Shown piece by piece: positions 9,471 to 61,071 of a DNA stretch of 64,000 nt (positions are counted from its first letter, which is position 1; each line of letters starts with the position of its first letter). Source of the DNA: Cinnamomum chago (taxonomy: Eukaryota > Streptophyta > Magnoliopsida > Laurales > Lauraceae); the NCBI GenBank assembly GCA_038049695.1, contig CP142451.1:46635001-46699000 (forward strand). The letters are read 5' to 3'. Below the pieces are notes generated by a model. It did not search any database and was not told the DNA's origin. It saw only the letters and a list, made by a program, of their open reading frames with translations. A program made the translations under genes and the position numbers.

Positions 9471-9846
9471 AAAATTTAAAACCCAAATCCAACTCCCTCA
9501 TGTCATTTTCAAAACTTTGCCTTGAGATAGTACGTGATCCCTCACACTACCATAAAATCCCCTCGGAAACTCAAAAGGCTATTAAAAAGAAATGCTCAAA
9601 GACTCTTGGTCAAGTCGAAAGCTCTCCTTCAAGTTTCTCTTCGAGGCACATCGACTCCAAAAGCTACTCGTCGCTGTACCTCGAGGAGGCATTTGTTGAC
9701 ACCAAAAATGTCACTTTGCCTCTTCAAAATCAAGAAGCCGCATGAAGCCATATCCTACTACAAACGGGCAATGCTACTTCAAGCATAAGATCTTGTCAGA
9801 ATCACTTGAAAACTGCAAGATCCTCCAAAACTGCCAAAAGAGGAGT
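9471..9846. other. No recognisable gene; retroelement-like non-coding DNA
   Basis: Short open frames overlap here in several phases, but none resembles a known protein. Composition and position suggest the untranslated or LTR part of an old element. Confidence 0.4.
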
Positions 9847-11400: not shown

Positions 11401-11404
11401 TGTA

Positions 11405-11510
11405 AATTGCCTTTCACGGCACAAATCGCCTCCTACGGAACAAATCACCTCCTACGGCACAAAATCACCTTTCACAGCAAACAAAATGAAGTCGCCTCTC
11501 ACGGCATTTT
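11405..11510. repeat. Five short tandem units (about 20-25 bp)
   Basis: The units are variants of CACGGCACAAATCACCTCCTA: GCCTTTCACGGCACAAAT, CGCCTCCTACGGAACAAAT, CACCTCCTACGGCACAAAAT, CACCTTTCACAGCA and CGCCTCTCACGGCA. A poly(A) run follows at 11,511. The function is unknown. Confidence 0.65.
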
Positions 11511-12388: not shown

Positions 12389-12393
12389 ATAAC

Positions 12394-14136: not shown

Positions 14137-14141
14137 ATAAC

Positions 14142-31441: not shown

Positions 31442-34400
31442 TTAGCGCAAGAAGTGAAGGACTGATGACGTCTTCATTTCACTAAACGCGAATGCTTCTG
31501 ACCACTTGGAGAAATAATCCGTAGCGGCGAAGATGAAGCGATGACCTTTGCTCGATGGAGGGGAGATAGGACCTATGATGTCCATACCCCAGGCTTCAAA
31601 AGGCCATGAGATTGCTGTAGGATGTAGCCATTCCGGAGGCATGTGGACATAATCTCCATGAACTTGGCATTGTTGGCAGCGCTTAGCAAATTGCATTGCA
31701 TCAGCCACCATGGTAGGCCAATAATAACCTAACCTTTTTATCTGATCGTAAAGCTTAGGCCCAGCCTGATGGGCTCCACAAAGACCAGCATGTACTTCTT
31801 TGAGTGTTCCCTCAGCCTCTTGTTGTGACAAGCAGCGTAGAAGTACTCCATTGTAGGATTTTCTATACAGCATTTTTGCAGGAATATCCAAATGAAAGTT
31901 TGGGGCTCGTCTTTGGATGCTTACCCGTTCTTTTGGATCTTCAGGTAGGATTCCGAACATTATGTAATCAATGAACGGATCCCTCCAGTCGCCGATCAGA
32001 GGTTTAAGGACGGAAATCCGACTTCCAACCACTTGGTGGCATTCAGCAACTGCTTGATGTGTGTTGAGAGGAGGGAGAATCCTTTTTTGACACACTGTAA
32101 TTTGCATGTTTTTCCCTTCTTGGATTGCCATAGACGCAGCAAGTCCAGCCAGGGCATCTGCACGAATGTTTCCACCTCTGAGGATGTGGATGATATGACA
32201 GATGTCGAACTTTTGTCGAAGCGATTGTGCTTTGTTGTAGTAAGGCAACAGATCGGGCTTCCTGACTTCAAATTTCTGATTCATCTGGTTGACGATCAGT
32301 TGAGAGTCTCCAAAAGCTTCCAGCGTAGTGATGCCGGATTCAAGGGCGAGTTCCAATCCTATGATTAGGCCTTGGTACTCAGCTGCATTGTTTGAACATG
32401 GTTCCAGTAGCGAGAATGCGTGTGGAATCATGTATTTGTCGGGATTAACAAAGAGAATGCCAATTCCCGATATTTGATTTCCCTTTTCATTTGTCCTGGT
32501 TGCGCCATCGAAGTACATGTGCCAGGAAGCATTTGATAAGGAAGTCTCCACACTGTAGACTGATTCGTCTGGGAGGTCATCCCTGAGTGGAGAATCTTTA
32601 GGCAATGGATGCTCCGCGAGGAAGTCTGCTAGAGCTTGGCCTTTGATTGCTTTTTGTGGTACATACCTAATGTCAAATTGTGACAGGAGGATGGACCATT
32701 TTGCCAGTCGGGCATTGAGAGAACCTGCTTTTGTGACAAGGACCTTTAGGAGGTTGATCCTCGAAATCAGGTAAACTGTGTTGGATAGCAGATAGTGACG
32801 CAGTTTTTGTACGGCGAACATCACTGCCAAGCATTCTTTTTCGACTGGAGAGTAGCGATGCTCTGCACCTACCAACATGCGGCTAAGGTAATATAGAGCA
32901 GCTTCTTTTCCCTGGTCATTCTTTTGTGCGAGTAGAGCGCCTAAAGAACAGTCAAGGGCTCTTGTGTACAAGAGGAATGGTTTTCCAGTTGTGGGGGCAG
33001 CCAACACTGGAGGTTTAGTCAGGTATGACTTGATGTCCTGGAACGCCGCTTCACATTCAGCATCCCAGACAAAATCGACACCTTTCTTCATTAACCGAGA
33101 GAATGGACGACACTTTCCTGATAGGTTGGAGATGAACCGCCGAATGTATGCCAATCTTCCTTGGAGCCCTTTTAATTGTCTTAGGGTTCTTGGAGATGGC
33201 ATTTCTAGGATAGCCTTGACTTTGGTGGGGTCAAGCTCTATGCCAGCTTTCCGTACTATGAATCCGAGAAACTTACCCGATGAAACACCGAAGAAGCATT
33301 TGAGGGGATTCATTCGCAGTTTGTGTTTGCGAAGTCGGAGGAAGACTTCTCGAAGATCTTTGAGATGGTCTTCTTTTCTTTTGCTTTTGACGGCGAGATC
33401 ATCGACATAACATTCGACCGTCTTGTGCTGCATATCTTGGAATATCTTCATCATAGCCCTCTGATATGTAGCGCCGGCATTCTTCAGACCGAATGGCATG
33501 ACAGTGTAGCAATACACGCCAAACGGGGTCCAAAATGCTGTGTGTTTTCCATCTTCAGGATGCATCTTTATCTGATTGTAGCCAGAGAAGCCATCCATGA
33601 ATGTCATTCGCTCGAACCCACAGGTATTGTCGATCATCACCTCCGGTATAGGGAGCGGGAATTCATCTTTTGGGCATGCATTATTCAGGTCTCTGTAATC
33701 AATGCAGACCCTGATTTGCCCATTTTTCTTTGTCACGGGGACGATGTTGGCCAACCATTCAGGATGCTGTTCCTCACGGATGAAGCCAACGCTTTTGAGT
33801 TTTTGAACTTCTTGTTCAATTTTGTCCATCACGTCAGGACGGAACCTTCTTTGGCCTTGTTTGACAGGCTTGATATCTTTTTGAAGATTGAGTTTATGGA
33901 TTGCTATTTTGGGGTCTAAGCCAGGCATCTCAGCGTAAGACCATGCAAAACAATCAACGAACTCATGAAGAAACGCGATATACTCGGGTAACTCATCATC
34001 CTTTATATTCTTGCTTATGAATACAGGACGTGAGTTATCAGGTTTTCCCAAGTCTATCTTTTGAACAGAATCTTCTGTTGGAAGATTTGAAGGTGGTTCC
34101 TCCACAATATTTTCGGAGGCTTCCAACCCAACAAAGCCTTCTGGAGTTCCAAAGGTATCTACAGACCACGGCTCTGCTTTTGTCCATGGGTCTTCTTGAT
34201 TGGTACTTTTCTCAAGATTTGCTATGAGATGGTCCCAATCACCTGTTGAAACTAGGTCGAAGTAGGGCACTTCCTTTGGAGACAGTGGTTCTTCTGGGTC
34301 AGAGAACCGTGTGTCTGTATCATCGGACAATTCCTCTTCATCATCAAAGAAATCGTACCAATTGGATGAACTTCCTGGATCCTTGACGACCAACTGTTCA

Positions 34401-37400
34401 AAGAGATATCCAGGGAGATCGATGTCTTCATTAATATGAGATGTTGAGGCTTGGTTGGCAAGATGACTTTGCAGCCTTTGTGTCAACTGTCTCAAGGCGG
34501 CGTCAGGATCATACCCCAGCCCATATGAAGACTTTTCTATGTGGCGGTGGGGTTTCCAACCTTCCAGTTGACTTTTGGTCAGGGTTGGTTCCAATGGCGT
34601 GATAATACCACGACCATCTCCCAAACCGGTTGGGTTCTGAGCGTCGTAGCCCATTTTCTTCATGATAGCTTGCGCCATTGGACTATACAGGGATAGTTGA
34701 GGCATACCTTCATTTTTGAAAGGTTCAAGCGAAGAATTTGATGAAGAAACTCCCGATTTATGGAAGAAGATTGGCTTTTCTTCTGCTGATGTTGCTGGAA
34801 CAACGAAGGAAGCAGATGCCGGATCTTCTATGTCAACGGTTGTCTCCATCGGAGTGAGAGCGGGCTGAACTTGTTGATCATCAGCTTGGCTTGACGATGT
34901 ATCGTCTTCTGGCTCTGAGTCCGAATCCGTGTCTTGCAAGATAGACACGAAGGAGACAGCAAACTTGCCCCCAGCCCTTTGTTTTGTCTTCTTTGCTTTG
35001 GTGGTGATCACCAGAGGCTTTGAAGACTTGAGGGAGACCATGAAGGGAGATTGATTATTCTCTTCGGTTTTGATAGAGGGTTTATTTTCTTCCAGTGATT
35101 GCTGAGGAGCCTTGCCTTTGTCTTTATGGAGATTTTCGGCAAAGGATGCTGTTTCTTCCTCCCTTTCTTCTTTTTCATCTTTGTACAACTGAGCATCTGC
35201 GAAATAGACTTCTTTGCCTTTGAAGGGCTTTTTGTCTGCAAACACTCGATGTATCAAGCCGTCATTGCCAACGAACTTGATGCACTGATGTAAAGTCGAA
35301 GGGACAACACCATTCTCGTGTATCCAGGGGCGTCCGAGAAGGATGTTGTAGCATGAAGGGGTCTTTATCGCATAGACAGTGACCTCGGAGATAAGATCAC
35401 CGATTTGCAACTTGAACCTGATTTTGCCGATCGGCCTTTGAGCGCTGCCATCATATCCAAAGATGGACACAGACGTGTGGCTCAGCTTGCTAGGCGGAAT
35501 GCCCAGTTCTTCGAGTGCCGAAGTGGAGATGAGGTTGAGTGCAGAACCTGGATCGATCTGGATTTTGCGTACTGGCACCTCTTTGATGTACCCGGTGAAG
35601 TACAGGGGTCGGTTGTGCTTTGTCTCGCCTAGCAGGAGGTCTTCCTTGGTGAAGGCGATGGTTGCACTTGCTGCTTTTTGAACCGAGAGGCATTCGATGC
35701 AGGATCCCTCAGTTTTCTTCTTTTCTCCTTTTGAGAGAGTTTTTGATTTTTCGACCCTATAGTCCATTTCAATTTGTAGGACTTGTGGGGCATGTTTGTC
35801 GACATCCGCATCCAGCATTTGTAGTTCTGAAATGAGACTATCACGAGTCTGTGGTGACATTCGTAATAAGTCTAGGATGTGCAGACGTGCAGGTATGTGT
35901 TTGAAGTGCTGAATCAAGTCGTACTTGAAAGCCTCCTTGGGGCCTGGATTTTCATTATTCTTGCCACTAGGGGCGTTTACAACTTGTTTTCCTGAAGGAT
36001 TTATATAAGAAGCAGAAGGTTGGTTGTAGTTTTTGTGGTAATCCCGGCCAGAACGGGTACCTCTACCAACTTCAAGAGCTTCTGGAGAAGGGTCTTTGTT
36101 TAGAAGATCACCCTCGAGATCGAGGGGTTGTTCCTTCTCATTTGCTGAAGATGTCTCTGTGTCAGCATTACCATCTTCAGTAATTGTGTTGCATGTAGCA
36201 TTTTCCGGGAACAAGTCCTGAACAGCATCCAGCAACTTTCCTTCTTTATCGAAGATTTTGTCGGTCCAGACATCATCGATGAGATCGGGCATTTGGGACC
36301 CATTAACCGGATTTTCTCTGAAGAAGATTTCACCGGCTGGAATTTCTTCAAGGTGATCAGTCGGAAGAGGTTTGAGTTCCGATGTCACTGTTCCAGGAGA
36401 CGAAGCCTGAGAAGGTGAGGAATCATCATCCTGAGTTATTGCATTGCAAGTAACTTTGACGGAAGATGCCTCCAAGATGAACTGTTGGGAATCAGATTCG
36501 TCCTCAGATGTAAGAGGATCGTCGATCCAACAGCTTTCTTCATTTTCCGGGGTTACCGGAGGAGATTCCTGTAGATTTTCAGGAACTTCCGGTGCTGGGT
36601 TGTGACGAAGCTGATTGATGCGACCTTGTTCTTGCTCTATAGCAAGGTGCTGCAAGATCCTTGCGTATTCATCGAGATTAGGCACGAGAGCCAAATCTTC
36701 TTCTTTGTCTGCTCCTTGTGGTTCAACATGGTTGGGTTCCACTGGAGTATTTTCTTGGACAGCCTCTTGGTCTTCTTCATCATCAGACCAGGATCCTTGC
36801 GGCTGTAATGGGTTATACCAGATTACTGGCATAAGATGAGATTCAGGGATCCATTCCTCGTCCGAGAGATATTCTCCTGTTTCGAGGGATTCCTCCCACT
36901 CATCGATGTCACTGGCGGTGTCACTGGACTCGTATCCATCCATGGGGAATCCGACCACCGAGTTGCAAGAGTATGATGCCCCTTGCATAGTTTCATCTTT
37001 GAGGTGTGGTGGCATGAAATCACCAAGAGTGAATTTTCTTGCCGCCTTTGAAGCCTTAGGGGAGGACTCTTCTGTTGCCCCCAGTGAAGCGGTAGAGGAG
37101 GTTTCTGCCTTTTCAGCGACTTCTTGCTTTTTCGGAGCTTTCTCCTGCTGTTTGAGCTTGCAGAGTTGTCTCCTGGCTTGCCTTCGCTGTTGAGCGGTTG
37201 GCTTTGTTTTGACGACCTCCCAATTTTCATCTTCTAGGAGATCGGGGTGTACCCATATGGGCTGTCCGTCTGATGTTGGATATGGAACCAACTCTTGGGA
37301 CGTTTGGGTCATCTTTATCACCTTGAAGGAAGTAGTGATCTTCTCTTTTGGTGATTTTTGTTTTTGTCCACACGACACCATGTTGACGGAGGCAGACCCA

Positions 37401-39769
37401 TAGTTCTTGTCGAAGGTAATGACTCCGTTTTTCCACATCTCATTTATCTTCTCTCTCACAACAAAGCATTGATTGAGAGGATGCGAGACCATCTGATGGT
37501 ATGGACAGTACCGAGGATCGTTGGTTTTGCCAACATCGCCCGGTCTTTTGGGGTCAGGCAATGTAAGTTTGCCGTTTGCTAGGAGTGCCCCAAAGATTTC
37601 TTCAACATCTTCATCGAACGGGTATTTCTTTTCTACTCGTTCTTTGAAGGCATCAGAGAGTTCAGGCTTTTTACCTGCAGCTTTGTTTTCAGCTTTCTTT
37701 GGCTGCTGAGGAGCTGACTTGGTTTGCACATTGAGAACCTCCTTTTTCTTTGGTTTTGAGGTTGCAATGGCAGTCGGCTCTTTCTTTGATGACTTCTGAC
37801 TGTTGAGGTCTTTGATCACCGTTTCAGCTTCCATAGATGCTTCCAGGAGTTCTCCCAGGTTCTTTGATTTGTTGCCGATGATCATGGAGCGGATTCTTGC
37901 TCTCATGTTGTTTCGGCAGATGTCGATCAGTGATGCTTGTGGCAGTACATCGGAGCATTTGTATGCCATTGCCTTCCACTTGTGAATGAAGTCATATGTT
38001 GACTCATTCTCTCCCTGTTTTAGGCTGCAGAGCTGAGCCATAGTAACAGGATGATCATCACCTTTGAAGTGGGTTAGGAAGCGTGTCTCCAACATGGCCC
38101 AATTTTGAATGGAGTCCTCCGGCAGAGTGGAGTACCAATCAAAGGCCGTACCTTTTAGGGTACTTGCAAAGAGGCGGATTTTGAGGGCATCTTGATCCGC
38201 AATAGCTCCCGTCAGGATCTTGAAATGGATGACGTGTTGTCTGGCTGAACCTTTCCCCGTATATGTTTGGAGAGTAGGTTGCTTGAATTTTGTAGGGAAC
38301 GGGACCGAGTCCATCCACAAGGGATATGGTGGCTTGATCCCATGCTCCTTTAGTGTATCCTCTTCTTTTGCTTTGGCGAGGATATCGTCAACGTCCTTTT
38401 TGGTAAGGGCGCGTGACTCACTGTTTTCCGCATTTTCCTCGTCGCCTTGATGGCTCGGAGGAGCTTCATTGTTTTGTGGACGCTGAAGATTGAGAATTAG
38501 GTTCTCTATTAGAGTCTCTATCCTCTGCTGCCCTTGCTCCAGCTGCTGGATGCGTGCGGTTACGTCATCATGCGGCGGAGGTTGCTCAGCATTTGTTACC
38601 AAGACGTTCATTCTTCGAGAGTCGAAAGAGGATACAGTCTTGGTGACTGAGCTGGAGCTCATTCTTTTAGATGAAGAGCTCGAAGAGTGGTCACTCTGAT
38701 GTCCTTGGCTTGAAGGAGCGGGAGAGTTTTCTTTATGTCTTCGTGTCCGGGAGACGCTGCGAGTCACCGGTCGTCTGACATGGATTTTAGTTGCTGACTT
38801 CTGGCATTTTCTGGTTTTGCCAACCATATGAACAGCAACAAGTTGGTCGGGTCTTTCTTTTTCGACCCATTTTTGAGAGACTTGAAGTGCAGAATCCTGG
38901 GTTCTTTGCTTCTCTAGTCTCTTTTGTCGATATGCCGTTCGGCGACGCATACGACGAGCGATTTGAGCTTTGGTTAGCTCTGGCTGTGCCCTAGCAATGA
39001 AGGAAGTAGTCCCTGGTGCGCAGCAGCCAAGCTTGTCTTCTTTGAAGATGGGCAGGGACAGGATCTGGACGCGGTCCTTTGCCTGTCGCAGCGAAGCTTT
39101 GAATTTTGCGAGTTCGGCTCCCGTTGAGAGGAAGGGTCGACTCGCAGGTGTGAAGGCCTTGACAGGTTCTTGCGGAGGCCTTACGATGCACGATTTGATT
39201 TTGGGCTTGTATGAGCAAGCCGGCTCGTGCTGAGTTGGTTTTGTTTGGCGGAGGGTAGGCTTCTCCTCTTTCATGTAAGCAAGAGGGTAGAACCGGTTCT
39301 CCTTGAGAGGGGCCAGGTATGCTGGCTTTGCTGATGTTTGTGACCTTCGCTGTTTGGGTGAAGGCCTTGGAGACCAAGTCTTTGAGCAGACCTGGTTTCT
39401 TGCTGGTTGAGGCTTTGCAGGAGCACTACGGGCCTCAGGTTTCTTGATGATCGCCCTTGGTATCACTGTAGTGATACGTTGAGGGGCGGTTCTCTGCTTC
39501 TTGGCAGGTGCGGTTTCTTCTGCGGGTAGTGGGAATGGTCCCAATGACCCGAAGACAATGGTCCGGGGAGTAGAGTTTGACCCGGTGTCTTCTGAGTTGC
39601 CGAGGGAAATGACGCTTCGGCAGCTGGCGGGGCGCTTGTAAGTGCGCTTGGTTTGTTTGTCTTGGAGCATGAGCTGGTACTTGTTCTCATCAAAGGTGAT
39701 GGTTAATGAAGCTGCCATTGTTAGTTTTTGGAAAACTTCTGAAACAAGACCATATCCATTAGTAATCAC
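31442..39769 (-). mobile_element. Tat-clade Ty3/gypsy coding region, one long open frame (2,775 codons)
   Basis: The likely start is the ATG of MAASLTITFDENKYQ at about 39,718. Domains on the minus strand are gag (about 38,300-37,800), protease (about 35,660-35,270), a G-patch-like segment (about 34,690-34,490), reverse transcriptase (about 33,830-33,280, YVDDLAVKSK), RNase H (about 33,000-32,640), a second archaeal-type RNase H (about 32,530-32,090, MYFDGATRTNEKGN and NNAAEYQGL), the integrase zinc finger (about 31,815-31,650) and the start of the integrase core. The second RNase H marks the Tat clade (Retand/Ogre relatives). The reading frame looks whole as far as it goes. The element is cut in the integrase at 31,442 and has no LTR here. 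Many open frames on the other strand are shadows. Confidence 0.93.
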
Positions 39770-40100
39770 AAGAATATGGTGATCATAAATGGAAAATACT
39801 ATGGTTTCGCCTTTTCAAGTCGCCCGAGGGGACATGGCCTAGCCCAAGCAATATGAGGAAGGCAGAAAAGCCATAGAGGGCACAATTGTTCTGAACGCAG
39901 GTAGGGTCAGCTCAGAATGAGCGTCCCAGTGACTGCTAGAAGCAATTGTGAACCTTAATTCAAATTACCGAGAAGCAAAGCTCACTCAAGGTAAAATGAT
40001 AGAAGGTTGAGATACAAATGTGTCGGTTGCGAATACAGTAGACCCGAAAGGGCGTACTAGCACCGCTAGGCACAAATGTTGCAAATCGCATCCTTGGAAA
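39770..40100 (-). other. Leader of the Tat element; no gene
   Basis: This lies 5' of the long open frame in element orientation and shows no protein similarity. The change into copia-type LTR sequence occurs somewhere around 40,060-40,110. No LTR end or primer-binding site of the Tat element was recognised. Confidence 0.5.
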
Positions 40101-47421: not shown

Positions 47422-47965
47422 CACTACACCATAATAATCAATTAGTAACGGATCTACAGCCGTTACAAAAAATATTAGTAACGGTTATTTTACGTTGACA
47501 CAATTGCGTCACAAATGAAAAGTAACGGAAATTAGTAACACTTAATAACCGTTAGAAATATTACTAACGGTTATGAACTATGACTGAAATTAATTTCAGC
47601 AACACATCTATAATCGTTACAATTTATTAGTAACGGTTATTAATTTTGTTCATAGTTTGTTCCCAACGGATAAAACTGTTGGTAATTCCCACTTTCTGAC
47701 TCATATATAACTATTTGGTCAACCTATTTGTAACGGTTGTTATCTATTACGAAGTATTCTATTTGTAACGGTTAGAGTCCGTTACTAAGTATTATATTTG
47801 TAACGGTTTATATCCGTTACTAAGTATTTGTTGTTTTAAGAAAAAAAACAATAGAATTTCATGATCAATTTCTGACAGGCCACCTACAGTACTTCTGACT
47901 ACATAGATACTAAATGCTATATTGGTAAATGACACTTGCTATCAAAATTAAAAGAATCATGAAAC
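47422..47965 (+). repeat. CACTA subterminal repeat region A
   Basis: Direct and inverted copies of AGTAACGGTT and its variants recur roughly every 30-60 bp. Arrays of short subterminal motifs are the transposase binding region in CACTA elements (known). The matching array in element B is at 50,914-51,330. Confidence 0.8.
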
Positions 47966-49960
47966 TGTTGGGATTGGTGTATGCCCTAAAGCCCACTGAC
48001 TGCACTTTCATCTCTGTAACTGGATATTTATTGGTTATTTAATGGAATGACATCTTTCTCTTATTACTTGTGTATATGTATGGTTGTATAAGGCCCATTG
48101 TTTTCAAGTAAATGACTTAGGTGTGCAGTGGCTGCACACAGAAAGGTCTGAGTCATGGATACTGGAAACAACTAATATGTTCATAACTGAAAGGTGGAGT
48201 TGGGCACTTCATCTTGGTATAAGTTATAATGAGAAACTCTCCTATGTTCAGGGTGACTTACCTTAGTCACGGGAGGTCTTTCCCGGATTTATCTCATTGG
48301 TGCATGTGTCATGCATTGAACCGGACCATCTGTAGGTGTGATCTCTAAAATAGTACTATCACAGAGAGAGATCAAATCACCTCTTGCTACTGAGTGACCA
48401 GTGCTCTTAATCTTGAGCATTTGTGGATGAACTGACGAAGTCAAGTTCTTGTGCTTTAATTCACTGTGGGTGAGATCCTGTACATGGGTCAACAGCTCTG
48501 TGTTTTGGGTGCTCGGGCTTGATTAGTTGGGACGTGCAAATGCAATATGGAATCTATGCCATCGGGAGATGGAATGATCGTCCCCTTAGAATTATCCGAT
48601 TAATCATCATAATCTAAGATCTTAGTATATGGATGTTCCATATGGATATTGAACTTGTGGGTCGCTCCCTGGATCAAGAGAATGATATCCGGATGATGAT
48701 TAGGTCAAGGGTATGAAGTTCTAAGGTTAAGACGTAATCGAGAAGGTAGATAGTACATCGGTTAACCTACTTGATTATGGATGTTACATAGAGGGGCATT
48801 GTGGTCATTGTACTTGGTAGGTCAAAGACAATCGTCATTTTATGACGAGCTTATTGTGCATTTAATATTTGTCCCTGGAGTGCAACCATAACTCTTTAGT
48901 GGAATGAGTTAGGGTTAAAATGATCTTAATGTTGCTATGGGGTTAGCATGGACATTTTGGTCATTTTAGGAGCCAAGGGCAAATATGTCTTTTGGCCCCT
49001 CTTCTAGCCGCTTTCCTATATTGGCATGGTTTCCTAATTGGAAGATTTGTGGTTGAATTAATTTTGTGGAATAATAATAATTTTGAGTTTAATTCTAATA
49101 GGCTCTATGAGGCATACATGAATTTAACTCTAGCTAAATTATTGTCTTGTGGGCCATGGTGTGTTTAGCTAATATTGTGGGCCAGCCATAAGTGGGGTCA
49201 CATGAGTGAGGTTTCCAAGTTTGATTAGGCATCTTTACTTGGAAGGCAAGACTCCTCTTTGGGTAAGAATTCCTCTCATTAAAGGTTACTAATTTTAGTT
49301 TCCTAATTTAGTAAGTGTTGCACAACTAAGGAGACTAGTTACTAATTTTTATGGAAAGGTGTTTCCTATTAGAAATAGGAATGTACACTCTTTATAAGAA
49401 GGAAACTACCTTGGGCGTGCAACACATGAGTACTAATAGAAAGAGGAATACCCTAGTGGACGTGCATCACTATATAAAACCCCTTGGCCGTCCACTTTGA
49501 AAATAACACCATTCACGCCCAGCCCTCTTGTTGGCTGCCTTCTCCTTCATCTTAGGAGAGAGAAGATCAGCAACGTCCTTCTCCACAAAGAGAGATTCAG
49601 AAACCCTTCTTTGGATTCCATACTTTGATCCCACCATCATCACCAATTAGATTTGGGAGTGGAATAGGAGAGAAGACCATAGGAAGAAATTCTGCACAAA
49701 TTCCTGCACCTGGGTTGTAGATTGCAGGAGGATTTCAGAGCCTTAAAGCTTCTCTTTTCAAAGTTTCAGAGCACACAAATCATCAAGGTAATAGATTACT
49801 ATCTACTCCTTGATTTAGGAACATGTTGGTCATGATTTCATGGGTTTTAATGCATGGTTTAATGGCTGATTTCAAATCTGTTTTTAAGTTTTTAAAACTC
49901 TGGTTTAGCACAAATCAGCCATGTATATCTCTTTCCAGACCTGATATGCATTATCTTTCA
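47966..49960 (+). mobile_element. Solo LTR of a copia-type element (1,995 bp)
   Basis: It runs from TGTTGGGATTGGTGTATGCC to GCATTATCTTTCA and is flanked by the perfect 5-bp target duplication GAAAC (47,961-47,965 and 49,961-49,965). The empty site is seen directly in CACTA element B, where ATCATGAAACCACATCCCC is uninterrupted near 51,450. A TATA-like TATATAAAACC lies at about 49,471. A partial LTR of the same family lies at 40,100-41,840. Confidence 0.95.
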
Positions 49961-50128
49961 GAAACCACATCCCCATGTGGGATCAACACGTAAAAATAAA
50001 AAATATATATCAATACCGAAAACTTACTGCAGTCTTAAAAGGCATATATCTCTAGAGATACAACAGAATGAATATCCAACATGAATCAATGACACATCCA
50101 AAATGACATAAAGAAGAAAAAACCTTAC

Positions 50129-50524
50129 TTGTTCATGACCTCGTATTTTCATGAATCGACGCAATAATTCACGTTTGTAGTGGCAGTCACCGCTTAGATG
50201 GCCAGCACGTATCTGAATTTGTGAGAGAAACCATCGAGAGCAAACCTTAGGGATTAAAGAGAACTCCAAGTCTCATGCACTAAACACAAGTTATGTAAAG
50301 TTGATATAGAAAAAAAAAACCAGCTAGAATAAATCATAGTTTAGGAACCATCAGAGCACATACTATATGAAAAGAATCCAAATTACCTCGCTGCAAGCAT
50401 GATGGGCACAATTAGCCCAGTCCAAATTTGCAGCCCAACAGTCATCATACGCATGGATTAGCTCATGGATAACAACTTGGTTGACTTCATCTTGAATATT
50501 CATATGATTACTACATAACATTAT
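50129..50524 (-). pseudogene. ATP23: Captured fragment of ATP23, mitochondrial inner-membrane metalloprotease (2 exons)
   Basis: Two in-phase minus-strand exons are present: 50,387-50,524 (46 codons) and 50,129-50,212 (28 codons). The first carries NHMNIQDEVNQVV and the zinc-protease motif HELIH (HEXXH), then AYDDCWAANLDWANCAHHAC. The second carries IRAGHLSGDCHYKRELL and KIRGHEQ. Both are bounded by AG acceptors and GT donors. In the family the HEXXH site removes the presequence of ATP synthase subunit 6 or aids its assembly. The N-terminal third and the C-terminal exon (normally rich in NPYC..A) are missing, so this is a fragment. It lies directly right of a CACTA left end, which suggests capture. 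No stop occurs inside either exon. Confidence 0.88.
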
Positions 50525-50913
50525 CTGATGATACATAAAAAAGGTAGGTAAGTACCATCATCAAATAAATGGTGTCAGTTGTTCATAGTAGCATCCACAC
50601 CAACATAATATGCATCTCATCTGTCTGTCCAAAAGATCATCTTCTTATAAAAGAAAGAGAAATTTACATATTAACAACTGCAGTTCTTTATAATTAAAAT
50701 TAGCCACCTGCGTATTCTACTTTCGCCCATAAACACCTCTAGGCTCTAGTAATCATTGGAAAATCTCGGTTAACCACCTTGACTAGTTTTTTCCCGATAA
50801 ATGAAATCCACTGTCTCACGCAATTTAGAACTGTTGAAAATGTAAAAGAGACTGCATATTTATGTTCGCTAGTATCGAATAAAAGATCAACCGAATTGAT
50901 ATGAAGAAACAAA
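50525..50913. other. No gene recognised between ATP23 exons and CACTA B
   Basis: AT-rich, intron-like sequence. If it derives from the captured ATP23 gene it would be intron upstream of the HEXXH exon. The last three bases (AAA) are the target site of CACTA element B. Confidence 0.5.
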
Positions 50914-51330
50914 CACTACACCATAATAATCAATTAGTAACGGATCTATAGCCGTTACAAAAAATATTAGTAACGGTTATTTTACGTTGACACAATTGCG
51001 TCACAAATGAAAAGTAACGGAAGTTAGTAACACTTAATAACTATTAGAAATATTACTAACGGTTATGAACTGTGACTGAAATTAATTTCAACAACACATC
51101 TATAATCGTTACAATTTATTAGTAACGGTTATTAATTTTGTTCATAGTTTCTTCCCAACGGATAAAACTGTTGGTAATTCCCACTTTCTGACGCATATAT
51201 AACTATTTGGTCAACCTATTTATAACGGTTGATATCTGTTACGAAGTATTCTATTTGTAACGGTTGGAGTCCGTTACTATGTATTATATTTGTAATGGTT
51301 TATATCCGTTACTAAGTATTTGTTGTTTAA
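50914..51330 (+). repeat. CACTA subterminal repeat region B, left
   Basis: About ten exact TAACGG/CCGTTA cores plus variants occur in 420 bp. It is nearly identical to 47,422-47,840. Confidence 0.8.
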
Positions 51331-51768
51331 AAAAAAAACAATGGAATTTCCTGATCAATTTCTGACAGGCTACCTACAGTACTTCTGACTACATAGATAC
51401 TAAATGCTATATTGCTACATGACACTTGCAATCAAAATTGAAATAATCATGAAACCACATCCCCATGTGGGATCAACACGTGAAAATAAAAAATATATAT
51501 CAATGCTGAAAACTTACTACAGTCTTAAAAGGCATATATCTCTAGAGATACAACAGAATGGAGGATCAATTTCATAGAGCAGTAAAGCTGGAAAAATGGG
51601 GTAGCCCACTGACCGTCATTCCAATCTCTGAGCAGCCCCCAAAGGAACAGAATGGAGAATAATCCATTCTGCCAGATAATTCAAGACTGACTATGAGAGT
51701 TGGGGCATACGTACCCAGGCACACCCATAAACATGTAAAACAACAAAAATAAAGATTGCAGAGTTTAC

Positions 51769-52077
51769 CAAGCCTTTCAAATTGAAACTTGTCTCCCAAT
51801 ACAGCATTGGCAAGAGTGGATACAACAAAAGCTTCTGGTATTACCTCTTTGGAATGTGAATTCAAATCAGCAAGCCAATCATCAAGTTCAGCAGGATTCT
51901 GATGCAATTAGAAAGAAGTCATGAGCACAGCTGTGACTTTGTAAAAAAAAAAAAAAAAAAACCTACAGAGAAATGAGAGTAACACACCTCTGAAAGCAAT
52001 AGTTTATCAAACAATCTGACTTCCACTTTAAGAGGATCGACCCCTGGAGAAGGTTGTGCTACCCAATGGAGAACACC
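51769..52077 (-). pseudogene. Captured fragment of glutaminyl-tRNA synthetase (2 exons)
   Basis: The minus-strand exons are 51,988-52,077 (30 codons, GVLHWVAQPSPGVDPLKVEV then RLFDKLLLSE) and 51,769-51,898 (NPAELDDWLADLNSHSKEVI and NAVLGDKFQFERLG). They are consecutive in GlnRS, in its C-terminal anticodon-binding beta-barrel region, and have AG acceptors and GT donors. The enzyme charges tRNA-Gln in the cytosol. The catalytic Rossmann fold is absent, as is the end of the protein, so no aminoacylation activity is possible from this piece. It sits about 0.2 kb inside the left arm of CACTA element B, which supports capture. The reading frame is open within both exons. Confidence 0.88.
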
Positions 52078-52204
52078 CTGCATCAAGTGTCAATAGTTCA
52101 CATCAAGTGACAAAAACACTCTTCACAAAGATATATAATTTGAAAGAGCAGGTGGAGATTGAATGTGCTGTATGTTTGTTTTTTTTTCTCTCTCTCCCTC
52201 TCTC

Positions 52205-52520
52205 TCTTGAGAGAGAGAGAGATATATAAGGCCTTTACCAGGTTCATCAACAGTATTCTCCTGTGCAGAATCAAGAGCTACCGTCTGGGCTTTCCCAAGA
52301 GTTGTAACATTGTATAAAGAACATTTGTTAGAAATTTAGTTTGGAGTGAAAATTGGATATATGTAAATTGAACCCTTTTTCAAAGTGAGTAATTTATCTG
52401 GCAAAAATAATGGCTACTGCAAAAAGTTCCTCAGAAGATCCAAAAAGAAAGGGAAGCTTTTTATCAGCTTCCAAATTGGCAACAACACATTCGGCCAGAC
52501 CAAGAACCTGATTTGGAAGA
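52205..52520 (-). other. Two unidentified exon-like pieces
   Basis: Minus strand, about 52,425-52,518: after an AG acceptor an open stretch reads VLGLAECVVANLEADKKLPF, then LFGSSEELFA, followed by GTAGCC. About 52,235-52,320: TTLGKAQTVALDSAQENTVD. Both look protein-coding in composition, but I cannot assign either to a family. They lie between the GlnRS exons and the CPP exons and may be further captured gene fragments. A CT/GA microsatellite lies at 52,181-52,222. Confidence 0.4.
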
Positions 52521-53208
52521 ACAAATTGGAGTAGACAACTTTGTAAAATTGCCATGAAGCAATTAAGATCATTTAACAACATGTACGACCATTTTATCGA
52601 ACATGGCACCTATACTACCGAAAAAAGGAAAAGAGAGATAGGAGAGAAGAGAGAGAGACTCACCACCTTTCCTACCATATGCATTCTTACACCCTTCACA
52701 TCTGCAATTACTGGAGCACCCAACACCACCCTTTAAAAGTAAAATAGTTCATCAGAATCAGATTACACAAAACATGGAAAGCAGAGAATGCATGAAAGGA
52801 AATACCTGATAGCATTCGCAATACTTCTTAAGACAACTCGACTTCTTGCAATTGCATCCTCTCTTATGTCGGGCTGAAGCAGGTGTGTTGATACCTTCGT
52901 CCTGCAGAGCATGCTCTAAAAATTAAAACTGACTCAAGATGTCCAAGTAAACCAAAGCAAAGGGAGCAGTATTCCCCACCCCAGTTTCCGGAATAGTCTC
53001 GGAGTTCCTTATGACTTTGGGAGCAAATGCAAGAGGATTGCGTGATTCAATCTGCTTGCGAGTAGCCAAAATAGTATCTTCATGTACAGGCTTGTTAAAG
53101 CAGTCATGACATGAACAAGGCTCAACACAGTAGACTCCAGCAGCAAAGCATTCACAATGGCTGAATGAGAAAAGGCAGCATGTTAGATCACTGGAAAAAT
53201 TCACAAAC

Positions 53209-53833
53209 TGATGTAGCCCAAGAGGGACAGGCCCCAGAATAGGCTTTTGGATAATGGGTTAAATCCAGCCAAAGACCATTGGGGCCTAACCCATGGGGCA
53301 GCCCATGGCCCAGAGGCACATCAAGTGGTTTAGTCATGTTTTAGCCTTTGCTTTATTAAAAGTCAAAGTCCTGTTATGTTAAGAAGTTAATTTATTAAAT
53401 AGACCATGTAATAGGCATTCTAGTTGTAATTGGCTGGAAAACAGAAAATTGGAGTAAAATCCCATCCTTTTCAAAGATGGGCCAGTTCAAGTATAAAAAA
53501 CTGTTTGATTGACATGAAATCAACCCCTTCAAGATAGATTATCAGTTCTCTAAAAAGGTGAACACAAGATTGTGTGATTCTGATGCAACTAATAGTCCAG
53601 TAGTGACCTTACTGAGATTGTAATAAAGTTGGGAGTGGAACTTGTACCATGTCCAAGCGGACATCTAGTTGAGTCTATAAAAGCAAATATTAATTGATTG
53701 AATAATATTGACATGGTTTCTCTTATCTGGTGATTGTCTAAAAGCCTTGGGTCAAGAAATCTAGAAAGTGATCTATCCATAGGCTTAGGCTTGGAGAATG
53801 AGTATTGCTCAATCATCCTCCTTGGCTGCATCA
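53209..53833 (+). repeat. LTR-like insertion in a CPP intron (candidate)
   Basis: The 625-bp segment starts TGATGTAGCCC and ends GGCTGCATCA (TGATG...CATCA), has TATAAAAAACTG near 53,493, and is followed by ATTGGTAT and then TTGGTATCAGAGC at 53,864, a tRNA-Met primer-site look-alike. The flanking 5-mers do not match and no second LTR is seen. It is probably a fragment of an LTR or TRIM-type element. Confidence 0.5.
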
Positions 53834-55309
53834 ATTGGTATAAAACTTCGCTCTCTGTTGTTTTGGTATCAGAGCTTTGGCCTCTATCTAATCAATAGAA
53901 GTTGCAAGCTAGAAATATATAAATATATAAAATAAAATCAAGTATCAAACTACTCAAGGATTGATTCAGGATAAATAGAAATATTAATGTTTATTAAGAG
54001 AGAAAACACACTAGTCTCCCATGAAAAACAAATGGCCGTGCAAATAAATAAGTAGCATAAAATACATTCTTCTTAATAACCTTGTATCTGCATTAAGATT
54101 CTGTAGCAAGATTTAGCTAACCATATAACTCTGCTCAGAGAGTATTCAGATTTTCAACCTTGTTCACTCATGGCCAAAGAAGGAAGTTGAACCACTGGTG
54201 AAAAAGTTCTGTATTTAGAAATATAAAGCATTCTGGCTGACTCACATATATGGGAATGACACTATACATCTCCATGCAATGTATAAAGATACAAATCTCT
54301 ATTATAGGGCATGTGGATTCATTATTCTGAAAATAAAATTTGCATCTCAAATCGTTCAATGGGTCAAATCGAATCATGAATCGTAGAATTTTTTGAAAAA
54401 AAATTAAACTAAATTTAAAAAAAAAGAGTAGCCATTAATTGATCCATAGCAAAATCAATGCAATGATAAATTAGACTGTCATACAGTCATGAAGAACATC
54501 ACGACATATATCACTAAGAGGTCTCCTTAATCACTATGTAACTTCTCAATAATGAAAACAACAAAAAAGGGGGATCATAAGATTTGATGCAACAAGTATC
54601 AAACCGTAAGATTGACTTCTAAATAGGATTTGTTGCATATATACGAATTTGTTTCCCTAGGATTCAGTATGACTTGTAAGTCGTAAGATCCCGATTTGTA
54701 AGATTTTAACAACAACGAGTGGGCTTATTGATCATTAAACAAATGAAGAAGTAACATGCTAATGCAGTCCAGGTTGGGGTTAAACCAGTAAAGATGAATT
54801 TAAAGATTTTTTTTTCATTTGTTATCTCTATGATAGTAGAGCAATATCTTGAGAAATTGAGGGGGGGGGGGGGTGGGGGTACCCAGTTCTAGATGCACTA
54901 AACTCATACAGGTTCTGGTAAAGCCATAAAAGAGTGAACTTGATCAAAATTTGGAAGGAAACTAAGGCATAACCTTGATGTAGAAGGTAATTTAGAATAA
55001 AATTTAAATGACTCACTCTCTGCAATCCATACAAGTTGGACAAACCCACCATCACTGCCAAACAAACCACATTCTGAATGATCTGATCATTTGTCCAAAA
55101 TGCACCCAATAATCCAATATCTAAATCAGAATGCATCTGAATGAATGGGTTGAATAGGGATGACTATTGGGTCAACCGTACAAATTTTCTTATCATGTTT
55201 AAGTGCGTATGCTTTGGTAGGGAACATAGGCCTGACTTGAAATGTTAAAAACAACAACAGCCATCAACTTTTAAATTCAAAAGCAAACAAGTGAATGTGA
55301 TATACTTAC
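53834..55309. other. Remainder of the large CPP intron
   Basis: AT-rich intron sequence lies between the exons that split the first CXC motif. A poly(G) tract lies at about 54,861-54,878. Short open frames show no family similarity. Confidence 0.6.
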
Positions 55310-55991
55310 AGTTTCAAGCATTTAGACTTCTTACAGTTGCAGCGCTTACAAGCCTCACTTTCTCCAGCATTTTCTAGCCTGCGCCTGTTCATTGTGAAAC
55401 CTCGATTTTCAGTAACAAAGTGAAAGCAGAAGCCAGGTAAGAAATATATCAGCATCCTGGAACAAAATTAAACTGACAGCAATAAATGGAATAGAGTGCA
55501 TGCCTCTTCTTCTTGGGGCTATTCTGATTGAACTCTTCACCAATTTCAAGTGCAGGTTCCTGAAGATCATCTTGCATAACCTGAACTGCATTGCCATTAG
55601 AGCTCAAGTCTCCTTGAGCATTGTTTGGAGCCAAAGACTGATTTGTGGAACTGTGTGTAGCTGCTAGGGAATGAAATGAACCAACAGATCTTGGCATACT
55701 AATTAATCGGCTTACAGAAGTCAAAGACTCATGCTTGACAATTCTGAAGTCCTTTGAGGTACTTTCAAGAGCATTCGAGTGCAAACAATACTAGGCAGCA
55801 TGCACTGTGATGACGAACCAATTCCGGGCTTGAGAGGAACCAATTTTTTTATCCTCAGAAGCACATTTTCCCTCAGACTGCATGGAATTTAAGGAATCGC
55901 TTTTTGAATCATCCGTTGCAATCTTTTTATGAGCTCCTACATCAAAAACTAAACAGCGCCTACGCATGCCACGCTGCTGCGGAGTGTCGAC

Positions 55992-57921
55992 CTATATACA
56001 GAGAAGATGCAATAATTTATCTAGAACCAAGTAATTCATATAAGCTAAATAGCAATTCATAGTTTTTTTCAAGAGATTAAAATGAGTTAAAAGAAAACAA
56101 ATGTGCAAGTTTTAATATCTACAAAAGGTACATAAATAGGTCCATAGAGGATATGGACAAAACGCCACACTCCATCAAGGGATAGGGACAGGATGCGCTT
56201 TGGAAATGGTCTATGAGTGGCAGTTTATCAGCCAGAACCATGTTTCAGCCTTTGATTTGCAAGGGAGGTAACGCCTACTTGTCAATCTACTGTTGCAACA
56301 AAATTAAAACACTACAACATCTTCAGGATTGACAAGACAATTATCACAGCAACTTTTTCATGAGCAAAGATAAGTGGGAAATGTGGACGCCGGAGTGTGT
56401 TTTTCCCTTAAAGTTGTGTTGATTGTGTTCTTAGAGCTTGGATTGTCGTCTGCCAGACATGAAGAGTGCAGTAGTAGCCCTTTTTTTGCAGCAAAGGAAA
56501 GATAATACAAATCCTTGCATAATTTGCATGCAAGGAATTTGTAGGCGAGGAAACAAGAATAGGTTTTTTTTGTTTTTGTTTTTTGTAAGAAAAACAATAA
56601 TAGTTTAGAGATACATTAAGAAACAGTTCAGAAGGAGACTGATTTAAAGAAATTAGAGGTCATGGGGACCAATTAAGGTGGATATCACAATGAAGGACTT
56701 TTCCATAGCGCGGCTGGGGATATTCAGAGATGGTCATATATCATAAATAATAGCATTGATTCTTTATCCCTAACTAGAGCTGTGGCAAGGTGGAAGATGT
56801 TCATTATTGCAACACTGGGGTTGTAGCATGTAGGTTCAAGTCAGTTACCAATCGAAAATAAATTATTGCTATTACTTTTCTTTTTTTTCACCTTTGGGTA
56901 CATACACATCCTACCCAAGTCTCTCACCGGACACAACCAGGGATTGGTCCCTAGTTATTACTGTAGCGAGGGAGATGTCTACCATTGAGCTACCAGTGGA
57001 CTGGCAGGAAAAAATATATATTGTTGTCATAATTAGCCTGTGTCATTTTAAGAATCTTCTGGGTATGAATAATCCCTCAAGTAATTTAGCTTGTCACTTT
57101 TTTGGGCCAATCGGAGTAAAATATTACAATGAAGCTGATGTTGAGCAACTAATAAAGCTCTAAGGATCTTCAATCACTCATTTTCAAAGTATTCAATTGA
57201 AGTGATTCCTCTTATGCTATTGGCTTGGTTACCAATAGACGTCAAAGCCCTCAGAAGCTGCACTTTGTTATCAATGAGATACGTACCCATGTATGACCTT
57301 GGAAGAATAAAAAAAAAGTTCAAAATTATCCTGGAAAAGCACTGCAAGAGACTGTAAAAAGTTTGCACATGTGAAAATTGGAGCATTTTCCATGTCGTCA
57401 AGGGATCCTCAACATTACAGAAGCATAGCCTAAGGGAAGCAAAAGAGATAACACATTAAGCAGGGTTTTTAGTAATTTTATGCACATTGGTCCTATGTTG
57501 TTCTTTGTTTATAGGCCTTTGATTTCGTTTGAATGGATGTCCTTCATAAAGAGAATCAGTATTCAGCTCTTATACTGACTTCTCATGCCTTTTTAGTCGT
57601 ACTTCATTTCTTATTCAATAAATTTACCGTTACCGATCAAAAAATATAACAATCCCTCTCTATTCTATCTGGTTTGGACATTCTTTCCCTTTCTTAACAA
57701 AGTAACAATAGACAAGAGTTAATATAAAAAAAAAAAAAGCGCAGTGAAGTTAAGTGTGTAAGATAGTCCCTACAAACTTAGAATCATTTGCACCTTTTTA
57801 CCAAGTGAAATGCAATCTCCAACTTTGTCATCCATTTTCTCACATAGATCACCGGTGTCTTGCTCATTCTGATAAACGCTTGGAAGTAGCTGTGGGGTGT
57901 GATCTGTTTCTTTTTACTCAC
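55992..57921. other. CPP intron or lost-exon interval, with a SINE-like piece
   Basis: The flanking exons do not join in phase, so an exon may be lost or unrecognised here. Apart from the SINE-like element at about 56,775-56,885, nothing was recognised. A minus-strand open stretch at 57,174-57,300 (QLLRALTSIGNQANSIRG) has no identifiable family. Confidence 0.5.
56775..56885 (+). repeat. SINE-like element with tRNA-type promoter boxes
   Basis: Box A-like GTGGCAAGGTGG lies at 56,782-56,793 and box B-like GGTTCAAGTC at 56,833-56,842, a spacing typical of RNA polymerase III promoters in plant SINEs. Its 3' end and target duplication were not found. Confidence 0.45.
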
Positions 57922-59194
57922 CATCCTCAACTTCTTCAAGCTGGTTTATTGGATTTTGTTGCTGTTGCTGCTGGTGGTGGTGGTGGTGCAGAGAACTAAC
58001 AGGTTGTGCATTGTGTAAACCATCAACTTCGTCTTGTGGAGGGTGTGAAACAAGAGCAAAAGAAGTAGCATCAAAGTCCACCATGTTGTTATCTTCTTCT
58101 GTGCATGTTACAGATTCAGTGGATGAATTGAAAATTAAGACATCAGGGGCAGCATCAGAAATGAGCTTCTCCCAATCATAGCATGACCCATCTTCCTTAG
58201 TCTGCTCAAGCTGATATTGCCCTTGCGTTTCCACTGAACATGTCCCTTCTTTGGGATTCTCTTGGGGAAGTTTATCAAGTGATGCTCCTCCATCCATTTC
58301 CATTTTAATAGCACAGCATGATGTATCATTGTCGAGGTTACCATAATCAAGTGAACCAACATACTGCAGTGCTTGAGGCAGCTTAACAGATAGCTTTGAA
58401 CGCCCATTAGATCGCTCAACATTGAACTCTTCTACAGAAACACCAATGTCACATTTTTCTTGCTCACTAGCTGAGCCGCAATCAGACAATTTGACACTGC
58501 CTGAAAAGCTAGTGGACATTTTGCCTCCATCCCCATCGTCGGAAGAAATTTCAAGTTTTGAGAAGTCCGAGAAATGATGCCTAAAAAACAGAACAGTTCA
58601 TCACAAAAAATTTATTTTCATGGTACATATTGAGATGGAGCATGATTTCAATAATACATCATGATTCATGACATGATGATTACCTGCCAAGGAATCTTGA
58701 CTCCTTCTGGGAACTGATATGTGGCGAAGTAAACACGGAAGGGATGGATGCAAAATTGAGCGAGTGAAAGGTTTGTGCACTATGCAAAGATTTGACAGGT
58801 TTAATAGGAGATAGATTATTGATGTAATTGAAGACAGGAGAGTCCTGAAACAGAAAGAAAACCCGTCATATAGAGTTGGTCATGACTGATAAACAAAAGC
58901 AAGAAGAAAAAACTTCAACATAATTTTATTAAAATGCCAATAGTCTTCAACACTATACTATCAAATCAAAAGGACTGAAGCATTAAAAGTAATGCCCATG
59001 GAATCCAGATGGTTGAAATATAAGAAATCACCAAACTGACCACAAAAAATAATAAATAGTAATCTACTTGAATGAAAAAATAACAAAGTTTGGATAAAGG
59101 CATGAGAAATAATTGAAAACAAACACTCAACTCAAAACATGAAAACAAATGCTATGTTACTTACTACCTCAAGATATGCAGAAAATCTCATCAA

Positions 59195-60350
59195 CTGAAT
59201 AAAAAAGATGCAGTTGCATTAATTAGCAAGAAAAAATTTCCACAAAACCATCTAAAAAACCCAACTTTACTTTCAAAACATTTAGAAAAAGAAATCACAC
59301 TTTTAGATTAAAACACCTTAAGAGAAATCAGCCAAACAGGGGTAAAGAAAAAACAGTCCAAATACAGAACAGAAAAATCTGAACAAAAATCTCACTGAAA
59401 AAAGAGGGAAGATCCAACACAAAGAGAGAGAGAGAGAGAGAGATCAAATCGCACAAAAAGCTCAAAAAACTAGCGACAGCCTCAAAATTCAGCACCAGAA
59501 GCAGAACAAGTGGATAATCCAAGACCTGAAAACGATCGACCAAACAATCAACTAGATCGCACAAACGAAATCACCTAAAGACCTCTTTGGATGTAGATAA
59601 AAAGGTTCAGAAAATGAAGCCAGAGAAAACCGTCTACACTACACATTTCTACTGCAGACAATTCTCCCCACTTGTTTTTCCGCCTATTTTTCTCTACACA
59701 TCCAAACAGACCCTAAAACGAACAAATCAAAACCCAAATCTCAAAGAAAAACTTCAAAACACACACATCCATGCCACAAATCAAGCAGAAACACACATCG
59801 AGGATCTTCTGAGGAACAGAGGAGGAAGCAGGGGAGAGGGAGAGGAAGAAGGGAGGAAAAAGAGAAGAGAGGGAGAGAGAGAGAACTGAGGAAGCGAGGG
59901 AGTGGTGTGCAGGTGGGCGCTGCAGCAAGCGCATGCGAGGGGAGACAGGGGAGGAAGATGAGAGGAATGGAAGGAAGAAGAGTAGACAGAGAGGAAATAG
60001 AGTGATGGGGAATGAGGGAGAGAGAGAACAAAGAAGAAAGAGAGAGGAGAGGGGGAATGGTGCGTGAGTGCAGGAAGAGGGAGGGGTGTACCTGGTGCCG
60101 GGGAGGGGTCCGCGGCGCGAGGAGGAAGATGAAGGCGTCCGGGGGCTGCTGCGAGCTCTTGGTGATGCTGTTGTGGTCGTCGTGCAATGGAGAGGGAGGG
60201 AGAGATAGAGGAGATGGGCTCTGGAGAGGGCGATGGAGGCGGGAGAGAGAAATGAGTGAGGAGAGAGAACGAAATGAGTGAGCAGAGGGAGAGGGCGATG
60301 GAGGCGGGAGACAAAGAAATGAGAGAGGAGAGAGAACGAAACGAGGGAAA
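59195..60350 (-). promoter_or_regulatory. Upstream region of the captured CPP gene, GA/CT-rich
   Basis: The plus strand from about 59,815 to 60,345 is dominated by GAGAGA/GGAGGA repeats, with a short GA microsatellite at 59,425-59,442. On the minus strand this is a pyrimidine-rich stretch like the 5' UTR and promoter of many plant genes. It also produces long low-complexity Ser/Pro/Leu open frames, which are not proteins. No TATA box was placed. The presence of upstream sequence suggests capture included the promoter side of the gene (inference). Confidence 0.45.
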
Positions 60351-60394
60351 TGGGAATTTCGAGAGGAGTGAACGAAAGCGCGGGAAATAAGAAT

Positions 60395-60625
60395 TTCGCT
60401 GGCAGGAGAGGGGAAGTTAAAACCTTGGCCTTTTACCGGCGAAAAAAAAACTCCGAGAATACCTTCGACCTTTGCCCGCGAGAAAAACAAAACGCTGGGA
60501 AAACCTTGAACTTTGCCGGCGAAAAAGGCAAATCACTGGGAAAAGCCTAACATTTGCCGGTAAAAATATGTTGCCGGGAAAACCCTATCTTTTTCCTGCA
60601 AAAGCCGCTTTTTCGCCAGTAAAAG
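60395..60625. repeat. Tandem array with GCCGGCGAAAAA core
   Basis: About four or five diverged units of roughly 45-55 bp share a pattern like AACCTTGAACTTTGCCGGCGAAAAAGGC...CTGGGAAAA. It lies just inside the right subterminal region of CACTA element B. Arrays like this may be a second class of subterminal repeat or a captured repeat. Confidence 0.65.
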
Positions 60626-60724
60626 TAATACTTTCCCCCTCGTAAAAGTAATACTTTTCCCCCTCCTGTTTTCATTTTTATTTTGTAATGTGATTTTTCC
60701 TCTTTTTATTATTTTGATACCATT

Positions 60725-60913
60725 GTAACACATTACTAATCGTCACAAAATATCCAATAAATGTTACAAAATAATTCAAGTATTTGCAAAGATATTTACT
60801 AACGGTTATGAATATTGCTAACGGATAATAAATGTGACAAATTACCTAACGGAAATATTTGCGTTACTAATAAGAAATCTCAAATGTTGCAAAATCACCC
60901 AAATGGTGTAGTG
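60725..60913 (-). repeat. CACTA subterminal region and right terminus of element B
   Basis: ACTAACGGTTATG, GCTAACGGATAA, CCTAACGGAAAT and related motifs lead to the terminal GGTGTAGTG at 60,905-60,913. The array differs in order from the left arm but uses the same core word. Confidence 0.75.
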
Positions 60914-61071
60914 AAACTTCGCATCAACAATAAGTTAAAAGTAGATTGTATCCCAAAATGGGAATGTTTCAGTTACATTAATCAGACCAGGCCTTGCATC
61001 TTTCACCTGATATGAGCATACAAAGTCCAAATAGAAGAGTGTTGTGATAGGCAAAATGCTTGAAAATTTAC
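60914..61071. other. Sequence right of CACTA B, no gene recognised
   Basis: On the minus strand a short open stretch after an AG acceptor at about 61,017 reads VKDARPGLINVTETFPFWDT and ends in a stop. I cannot assign it. If the nested model holds, this is the interior of CACTA element A. Confidence 0.4.

Follow-up and report, generated by a model that had tools for sequence, protein, structure and literature searches.

The window, a 64,000-bp stretch of Cinnamomum chago DNA (C1:46635001-46699000), contains a complete non-autonomous CACTA transposon of Pack-CACTA type, 10,000 bp long (50914-60913), that carries DNA of host genes. The cargo runs in the order GlnRS piece (547 bp), ATP-binding cassette (ABC) transporter intron piece (320 bp) and CPP/TSO1-like gene segment (7.38 kb). 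We consider it very probable that this Pack-CACTA-type element was moved in trans, captured host DNA stepwise and landed in an older member of its own family, duplicating AAA at the target. On good support it is a fairly ordinary gene-carrying CACTA element; added interest comes from a single captured block longer than in the examples compared, and from cargo parts found again within other CACTA-type sequences or next to them.

The element starts with CACTACACCAT (50914) and finishes with ATGGTGTAGTG (60903-60913), terminal inverted repeats that begin with CACTA as in that superfamily. A 3-bp target-site duplication, AAA, flanks it on the left (50911-50913) and on the right (60914-60916), and 500-bp bins with at least three TAACGG/CCGTTA motifs lie at both ends. 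The left arm bearing these subterminal repeats (50914-51560) is common to copies on contigs C4 and C12 and to window positions 47422-47965 plus 49958-50070; the right arm (59813-60913), which includes a GA-rich stretch, is common to many copies. Pack-MULEs show target duplications of 8-11 bp and Mutator ends, and this class was rejected for the window element, whose duplication is the 3-bp AAA and whose ends are CACTA. None of the ten open frames of at least 110 amino acids in the element matches a transposase in Pfam, no Rfam match occurs across 50800-61050, and family or captured DNA accounts for the whole interior but ~11 bp. The element is without its own transposase, holds host gene DNA and has parents elsewhere (that of GlnRS being probable), which is the Pack-CACTA configuration. 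A preliminary description of this DNA had proposed a CACTA element, non-autonomous and gene-capturing, that measures exactly 10,000 bp, with matching ends, an AAA duplication, TAACGG-rich ends and no transposase, and these claims are all borne out, with empty sites found, the CPP parent located elsewhere and the GlnRS parent probably so.

We name the CACTA family having these termini family A. Searches of the genome (1.06 Gb, 14 contigs) with the left 501 bp returned at least 39 other near-full-length matches at 95-98% identity among the best 40 of 121 candidates, the element itself included; the remaining 28 of 68 rows are short opposite-strand matches. Likewise, the right 494 bp gave at least 39 other matches among the best 40 of 427 candidates, with 19 spanning essentially all 494 bp at 87-96% identity and 20 covering only the last ~255 bp, at 98-99%. 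Both ends match other repeat copies, a check that had been suggested earlier. Pairing of left- and right-end coordinates yields 10 candidate family-A elements, sized 7.7 to 34 kb. The sole other copy examined in full, C4:89632155-89643371 (11,217 bp), has the same ends as the window element and AAT on both sides. Its minus-strand frames match Transposase_21 (tnp2, PF02992; 2.9e-71) and DUF4216 (1.4e-11), and its third frame has no domain match; by domain match, a relative with the same ends carries a tnp2-type transposase. It has only the last 257 bp in common with the window right arm. This transposase-bearing copy also holds the old GlnRS piece described below. A 10,005-bp candidate relative (C5:24372463-24382467) was set aside, as none of three CPP queries matches it and the agreement in length looks like chance.

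We queried the genome with 248 bases made of both flanks joined, with AAA once. The search returned twelve matches: nine uninterrupted over 1-248 at 96-98% identity, the two halves in the window, and one partial match at 82%. The nine uninterrupted loci match 248/248 bases with length unchanged and AAA once, and the search identifies them as paralogous empty sites of the kind that the preliminary description had anticipated. Measured from a listed family-A left end, the insertion point is 1491-1495 bp away at five of the nine, 1791 bp at one and 9025 bp at another; the remaining two are without a listed left end. The distance in the window, from the left end at 47422 to the insertion point, is 1491 bp once a ~2-kb insert is subtracted. 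Because these distances agree, the window element is placed inside an older copy of its own family that starts at 47422, a nesting that had been missed. The left part of this older element occupies 47422-50913 (plus strand) and contains its own ~2-kb insert at ~47966-49957; no right end of it was seen in the window, where the right arm is matched once. A 9-bp overlap between the matches flanking the insert at 47966-49957 may represent a target duplication. The block could in principle be an ordinary chromosomal segment in which CPP and GlnRS are neighbours and the CACTA ends coincidental. That reading is contradicted by the empty sites, by the multi-copy ends and by a CPP parent and a probable GlnRS parent on two other contigs, nothing turned up in its favour, and we give it practically no weight.

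The CPP segment (52422-59801, minus strand) is collinear with C7:47523870-47531240, at 97.2% identity over 7,410 alignment columns. The C7 locus is an intact CPP gene (C7:47523595-47532281) with 10 exons and a 2,439-bp coding sequence (CDS) of 812 codons with one terminal stop; it supplies the CPP parent that was expected elsewhere in the genome. The window element holds exons 2-8, or 1,855/2,439 CDS bp (76%), and exons 1, 9 and 10 fall outside the captured span. All on the minus strand, the captured exons are exon 2 (58684-58844), exon 3 (57794-58580), exon 4 (55504-55991) and exons 5 (55310-55384), 6 (52980-53160), 7 (52806-52901) and 8 (52664-52730), the last four each encoding part of the CXC motif. 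One in-frame stop lies in exon 3 and a second in exon 4, between a 1-bp insertion and a 1-bp deletion. Splice dinucleotides are kept in all seven exons, with AG acceptors and GT donors, or GC at exon 4 as in C7. The preliminary description rightly placed the CPP and GlnRS exons on one strand with CPP splice signals present; it counted eight CPP exons where there are seven, and its "nearly complete" gene is too strong for a copy that has neither the start nor the last two exons and contains two stops. As they stand, window exons 5-8 encode paired CXC (TCR) domains (PF03638, 2e-24, two stretches); single exons score 32.3 bits and 22.8 bits against the CXC model, the latter just below the cut-off of 23.5.

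Because exons 1, 9 and 10 are missing and two in-frame stops are present, the captured CPP segment is a pseudogene. Substitutions unique to the window are equally dense in exons (22/1,854) and introns (61/5,139), and thus give no sign of selection on the captured copy. One comparison weighs against this reading: differences between the window and C7 are slightly lower in exons, at 28/1,854 (1.51%), than in introns, at 111/5,487 (2.02%), and this difference, together with the retained splice dinucleotides, could hint at use. On that view the transposon right arm would drive the segment, either as a functioning gene or as the origin of a functional chimeric protein; the segment does lie in sense orientation behind that arm, with splice dinucleotides kept in 7/7 exons. 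We regard this as very unlikely in view of the missing start exon and exons 9-10, the two in-frame stops and window-specific changes that carry no purifying signal. We infer that the captured cargo has no coding function. The sense-oriented exons may give rise to chimeric or small RNAs, and a CPP copy ~2% diverged from its parent regulator could conceivably yield small RNAs that target this parent.

The preliminary description had taken the GA-rich stretch (59813-60430) for the upstream region of CPP. A query with this stretch found 574 candidate places in the genome, the best 40 of them, itself apart, at 89-94% identity, and the other 29 of 69 rows are short matches. We compared 14 loci, nine fetched via the right-end query and five via the GA-rich query. 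The stretch continues unbroken or nearly so to the family right terminus in 11/14, is followed by 0.8-0.9 kb of extra DNA before the terminus in two, and lies in one where no terminus was seen; the five loci fetched by the GA-rich query comprise two unbroken, two with extra DNA and one with no terminus. The C7 CPP parent locus has no match to 59813-60430. Since it is repeated and runs on to the family right terminus in most compared loci, the GA-rich stretch belongs to the repeated DNA of a large family-A subset and is distinct from CPP, and we reject it as a CPP promoter or upstream region.

The GlnRS piece (51560-52106, minus strand) comes from the region of the anticodon-binding domain and comprises two exons and an intron: a 30-amino-acid exon-like stretch at 51988-52077 and a second at 51764-51907, with approximate boundaries. 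Domain PF20974 is found at 5.3e-14 on the two joined exons and at 4e-06 on one frame, in agreement with the two GlnRS exons noticed before. Querying the genome with the GlnRS region gave 30 matches: itself, 19 with at least ~400 bp of the GlnRS piece, the presumed parent and nine others, among which those on C1 and C8 hold window ~51912-52425, those on C9 and C5 only the ABC piece, and five are short. At nine or more of the 19 loci, a listed family-A left end lies within 1 kb, on the side where it is expected. Because the piece occurs at 19 other places, at least nine of them beside listed family-A left ends, it is best read as an old capture spread through family A, which had escaped notice.

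The presumed GlnRS parent stretch, C10:61898133-61898698, is 91% identical over query positions 1-547 and has open frames without stops. Seven glnS-model matches lie on the same strand 11.6 kb upstream of it (C10:61882828-61886520); none of the eight matches in that search is above the model cut-off, as expected for single exons. The parent is probably C10:61882828-61898698, so that of the two parents expected elsewhere the CPP gene is found and the GlnRS gene is only probable. The locus C2:63610641 was rejected as GlnRS parent, being just one more exon fragment. A lone copy of one GlnRS exon, 93% over 138 aligned columns, lies beside T-rich DNA at C2:63609801-63611800, without the rest of the family-A GlnRS piece. 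Two loci, C5:20778907 and C5:20781372, were set aside as presumed GluRS, with no match to the GlnRS peptide.

The piece at 52102-52422 has source-type loci at C9:44652324 and C5:34507117. It is intron DNA of a PDR-type ABC transporter, because its C9 counterpart sits between an ABC_tran frame (1.6e-11) and a PDR_assoc frame (3.1e-20). This transporter is the third source gene of the cargo, overlooked in the preliminary description. At the junction of the ABC and CPP pieces AAAAG is present in both source sequences, and the window has one A more.

Parts of the cargo recur at other CACTA-type sequences, which had also been missed. We used three CPP queries, all from the window CPP span; 53190-55500, 56000-56400 and 57790-59801 were unused, so fragments may be missed. 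One query was read at the best 40 of 47 candidates, and 36 of its 41 rows, matches of 50-131 bases at 73-86%, were set aside. Leaving aside the window itself, the C7 parent and some diverged paralogs, the matches lie at C3:131821717-131826984, C10:34153319-34157627, C1:117918282, C8:15778195, C12:30418645 and C4:59028424. The five other fragments with readable context all lie in or beside other CACTA-type sequences. The C10 fragment, which has a ~930-bp insert, is carried together with BRCA2 repeats (2.4e-22) by a complete 8,573-bp CACTA-type element (C10:34152674-34161246) with ends CACTACAAAAAAAA...TTTTTTTGTAGTG and a TGA duplication; a paralogous empty site, where TGA stands once, lies at another locus (L007). 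The C1 copy contains window 51922-53298 and 54529-54769, so that GlnRS piece, ABC intron and CPP stand in one block, followed by 2 kb, largely in common with C3, up to a TTGTAGTG terminus. The C8 copy is 99.2% identical to it over the 2,500 bp examined.

The C3 and C12 loci have in common 4.2 kb of CPP DNA plus flank, up to an end of CACTACAACAAATC type that differs by one base at C3. Ends of CACTACAACAA type lie near the C1, C3 and C12 copies, and C8 is a near-copy of C1. At the C3 locus (joined 8828-25945) a cluster of partly duplicated CACTACAACAA-type sequences surrounds the CPP fragment, with one end directly adjoining. At C12 a family-A left end stands 3.5 kb from the CPP fragment, and the C12 block may be nested in a family-A element; we dropped C12 as a sister of the window element, as its CPP block is arranged like that of C3. 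For the C1 and C8 copies no left end, and for the C3 and C12 copies no right end, was found in the examined surroundings, and because one end of each is missing, complete elements around these four copies are presumed only.

The C1 and C8 blocks are almost certainly of common origin with the window block, because the ABC/CPP junction is shared. We put at about even odds that the composite cargo of GlnRS, PDR-transporter intron and CPP was assembled once in family A and that pieces were passed to at least two other CACTA-type families. In that reading the recipients would be of two types, one with CACTACAACAA-type ends (C1, C3 and C12, with C8 as near-copy of C1) and one with CACTACAAAAAAAA ends (C10, where BRCA2 repeats were added). 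The window copy is the fullest composite cargo among the copies found, and nested breakpoints suggest a direction of transfer from family A outwards.

The copies at other CACTA-type loci could instead be independent captures from the C7 gene, which we consider somewhat less probable, at roughly one chance in three. Copies of different groups are star-like: among 2,018 sites, 22 are unique to the window, 26 to C3 and 17 to C10, while 16 are common to all three and two to two only. The star-like pattern would also follow from near-simultaneous captures. The fragments also have their own breakpoints, except for the end at C7 17240. That exception tells the other way, as the junction of ABC intron and CPP at C7 17240 is common to the window, C1:117918282 and C8:15778195. 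Moreover, the mapped fragment ends (C3, C12, C10 and C1 at both ends, C8 at one) fall inside the window CPP span, one of them coinciding, with the limit that all queries came from that span. Two or more groups cover 248 variable sites; at 45 of these every covering copy differs from C7 and at six only some do, a pattern that argues against independent captures; the other 197 differ in one group only, and several of the 45 and the six lie in one T run. Polarising via the C4 paralog, for which three of six shared exon sites were usable, is thin evidence: one of the three is derived in C7, as independent captures would have it, and two are derived in the copies. The paralog failed as an intron outgroup, with only exons aligning plus one short intronic match. 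Polarising the 45 shared sites by C>T/G>A changes gave 10 versus 10, with 25 transversions, and was uninformative. C3 and C12 share eight sites of their own, versus one and one for the other pairs, as expected for sisters.

For the element itself, the DNA shows the termini, the target duplication and the empty sites, and likewise the CPP parent, the order of the cargo and the broken frame. A tnp2 transposase from kin such as C4:89632155-89643371 would have moved it in trans. Copy number and divergence suggest that the GlnRS piece was captured first, long ago, and then spread through family A, and that the PDR-transporter intron piece and the 7.38 kb of CPP gene were later captures. The most likely route for copying in these later pieces is gap repair in which the template switched at short matches, which fits the presence of AAAAG in both sources at the ABC/CPP junction. 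The element would then have inserted, with AAA duplication, into the older family-A copy. The joint-excision model described for Pack-TYPE elements (PMC8903248) could take the place of gap repair; it needs two family-A elements at one place, and the nesting seen here provides that setting.

Several known systems resemble this one. Soybean Tgm-Express1 is described as a 5.7-kb CACTA element inside a gene intron, with exonic and intronic pieces of five genes whose exons splice into chimeric RNA (PMC1947982). By that description, both elements hold exon and intron pieces from several unrelated host genes; in contrast, the cargo here is dominated by a collinear block of 7.38 kb from one gene, and the target is another transposon. 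The Tpn1 family of Japanese morning glory is described as having 3-bp AT-rich target duplications and a 28-bp terminal repeat, with few transposase-bearing copies and non-autonomous copies in which host genic DNA replaces the interiors and the ends are kept (PMC5105172). The likeness to family A lies in this description, namely 3-bp duplications, replaced interiors and kept ends. The preliminary description held that a multi-exon gene plus a second gene is unusual cargo, whereas Tgm-Express1 and Tpn1 already carry multi-gene, intron-containing segments. Pack-TYPE elements of rice and maize are reported as non-autonomous, with captured coding DNA inside and layered capture in subgroups (PMC8903248); the block here is far longer than the captured pieces of 58-280 bp in the examples of that report. 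CACTA captures are described in Chenopodium as well (PMC8978399).

On wheat chromosome 3B, 140 CACTA capture events are reported, among them two genes each taken up by two different CACTAs, and for one doubly captured gene, present in two families, the authors infer recent DNA exchange (PMC4290129). As summarised there, this is a precedent for the passage of cargo between families (PMC4290129); unlike the wheat case, the composite junction and nested breakpoints here suggest that transfer ran outwards from family A, and one more type of terminus takes part. A literature search on CACTA captures across families and on CPP with CACTA gave no report of this case among the matches listed. With CPP parent, capture series and empty sites within one genome, the element is a clear example of layered CACTA gene capture. 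If passage between families is true, captured gene pieces spread beyond the reach of one transposase, transposons supply other transposons with stolen genes, and models of exon shuffling and of host-gene silencing by captured copies would change.

Elsewhere in the window, on the minus strand at 31442-39814, a 2,790-codon open frame looks like a retrotransposon polyprotein.

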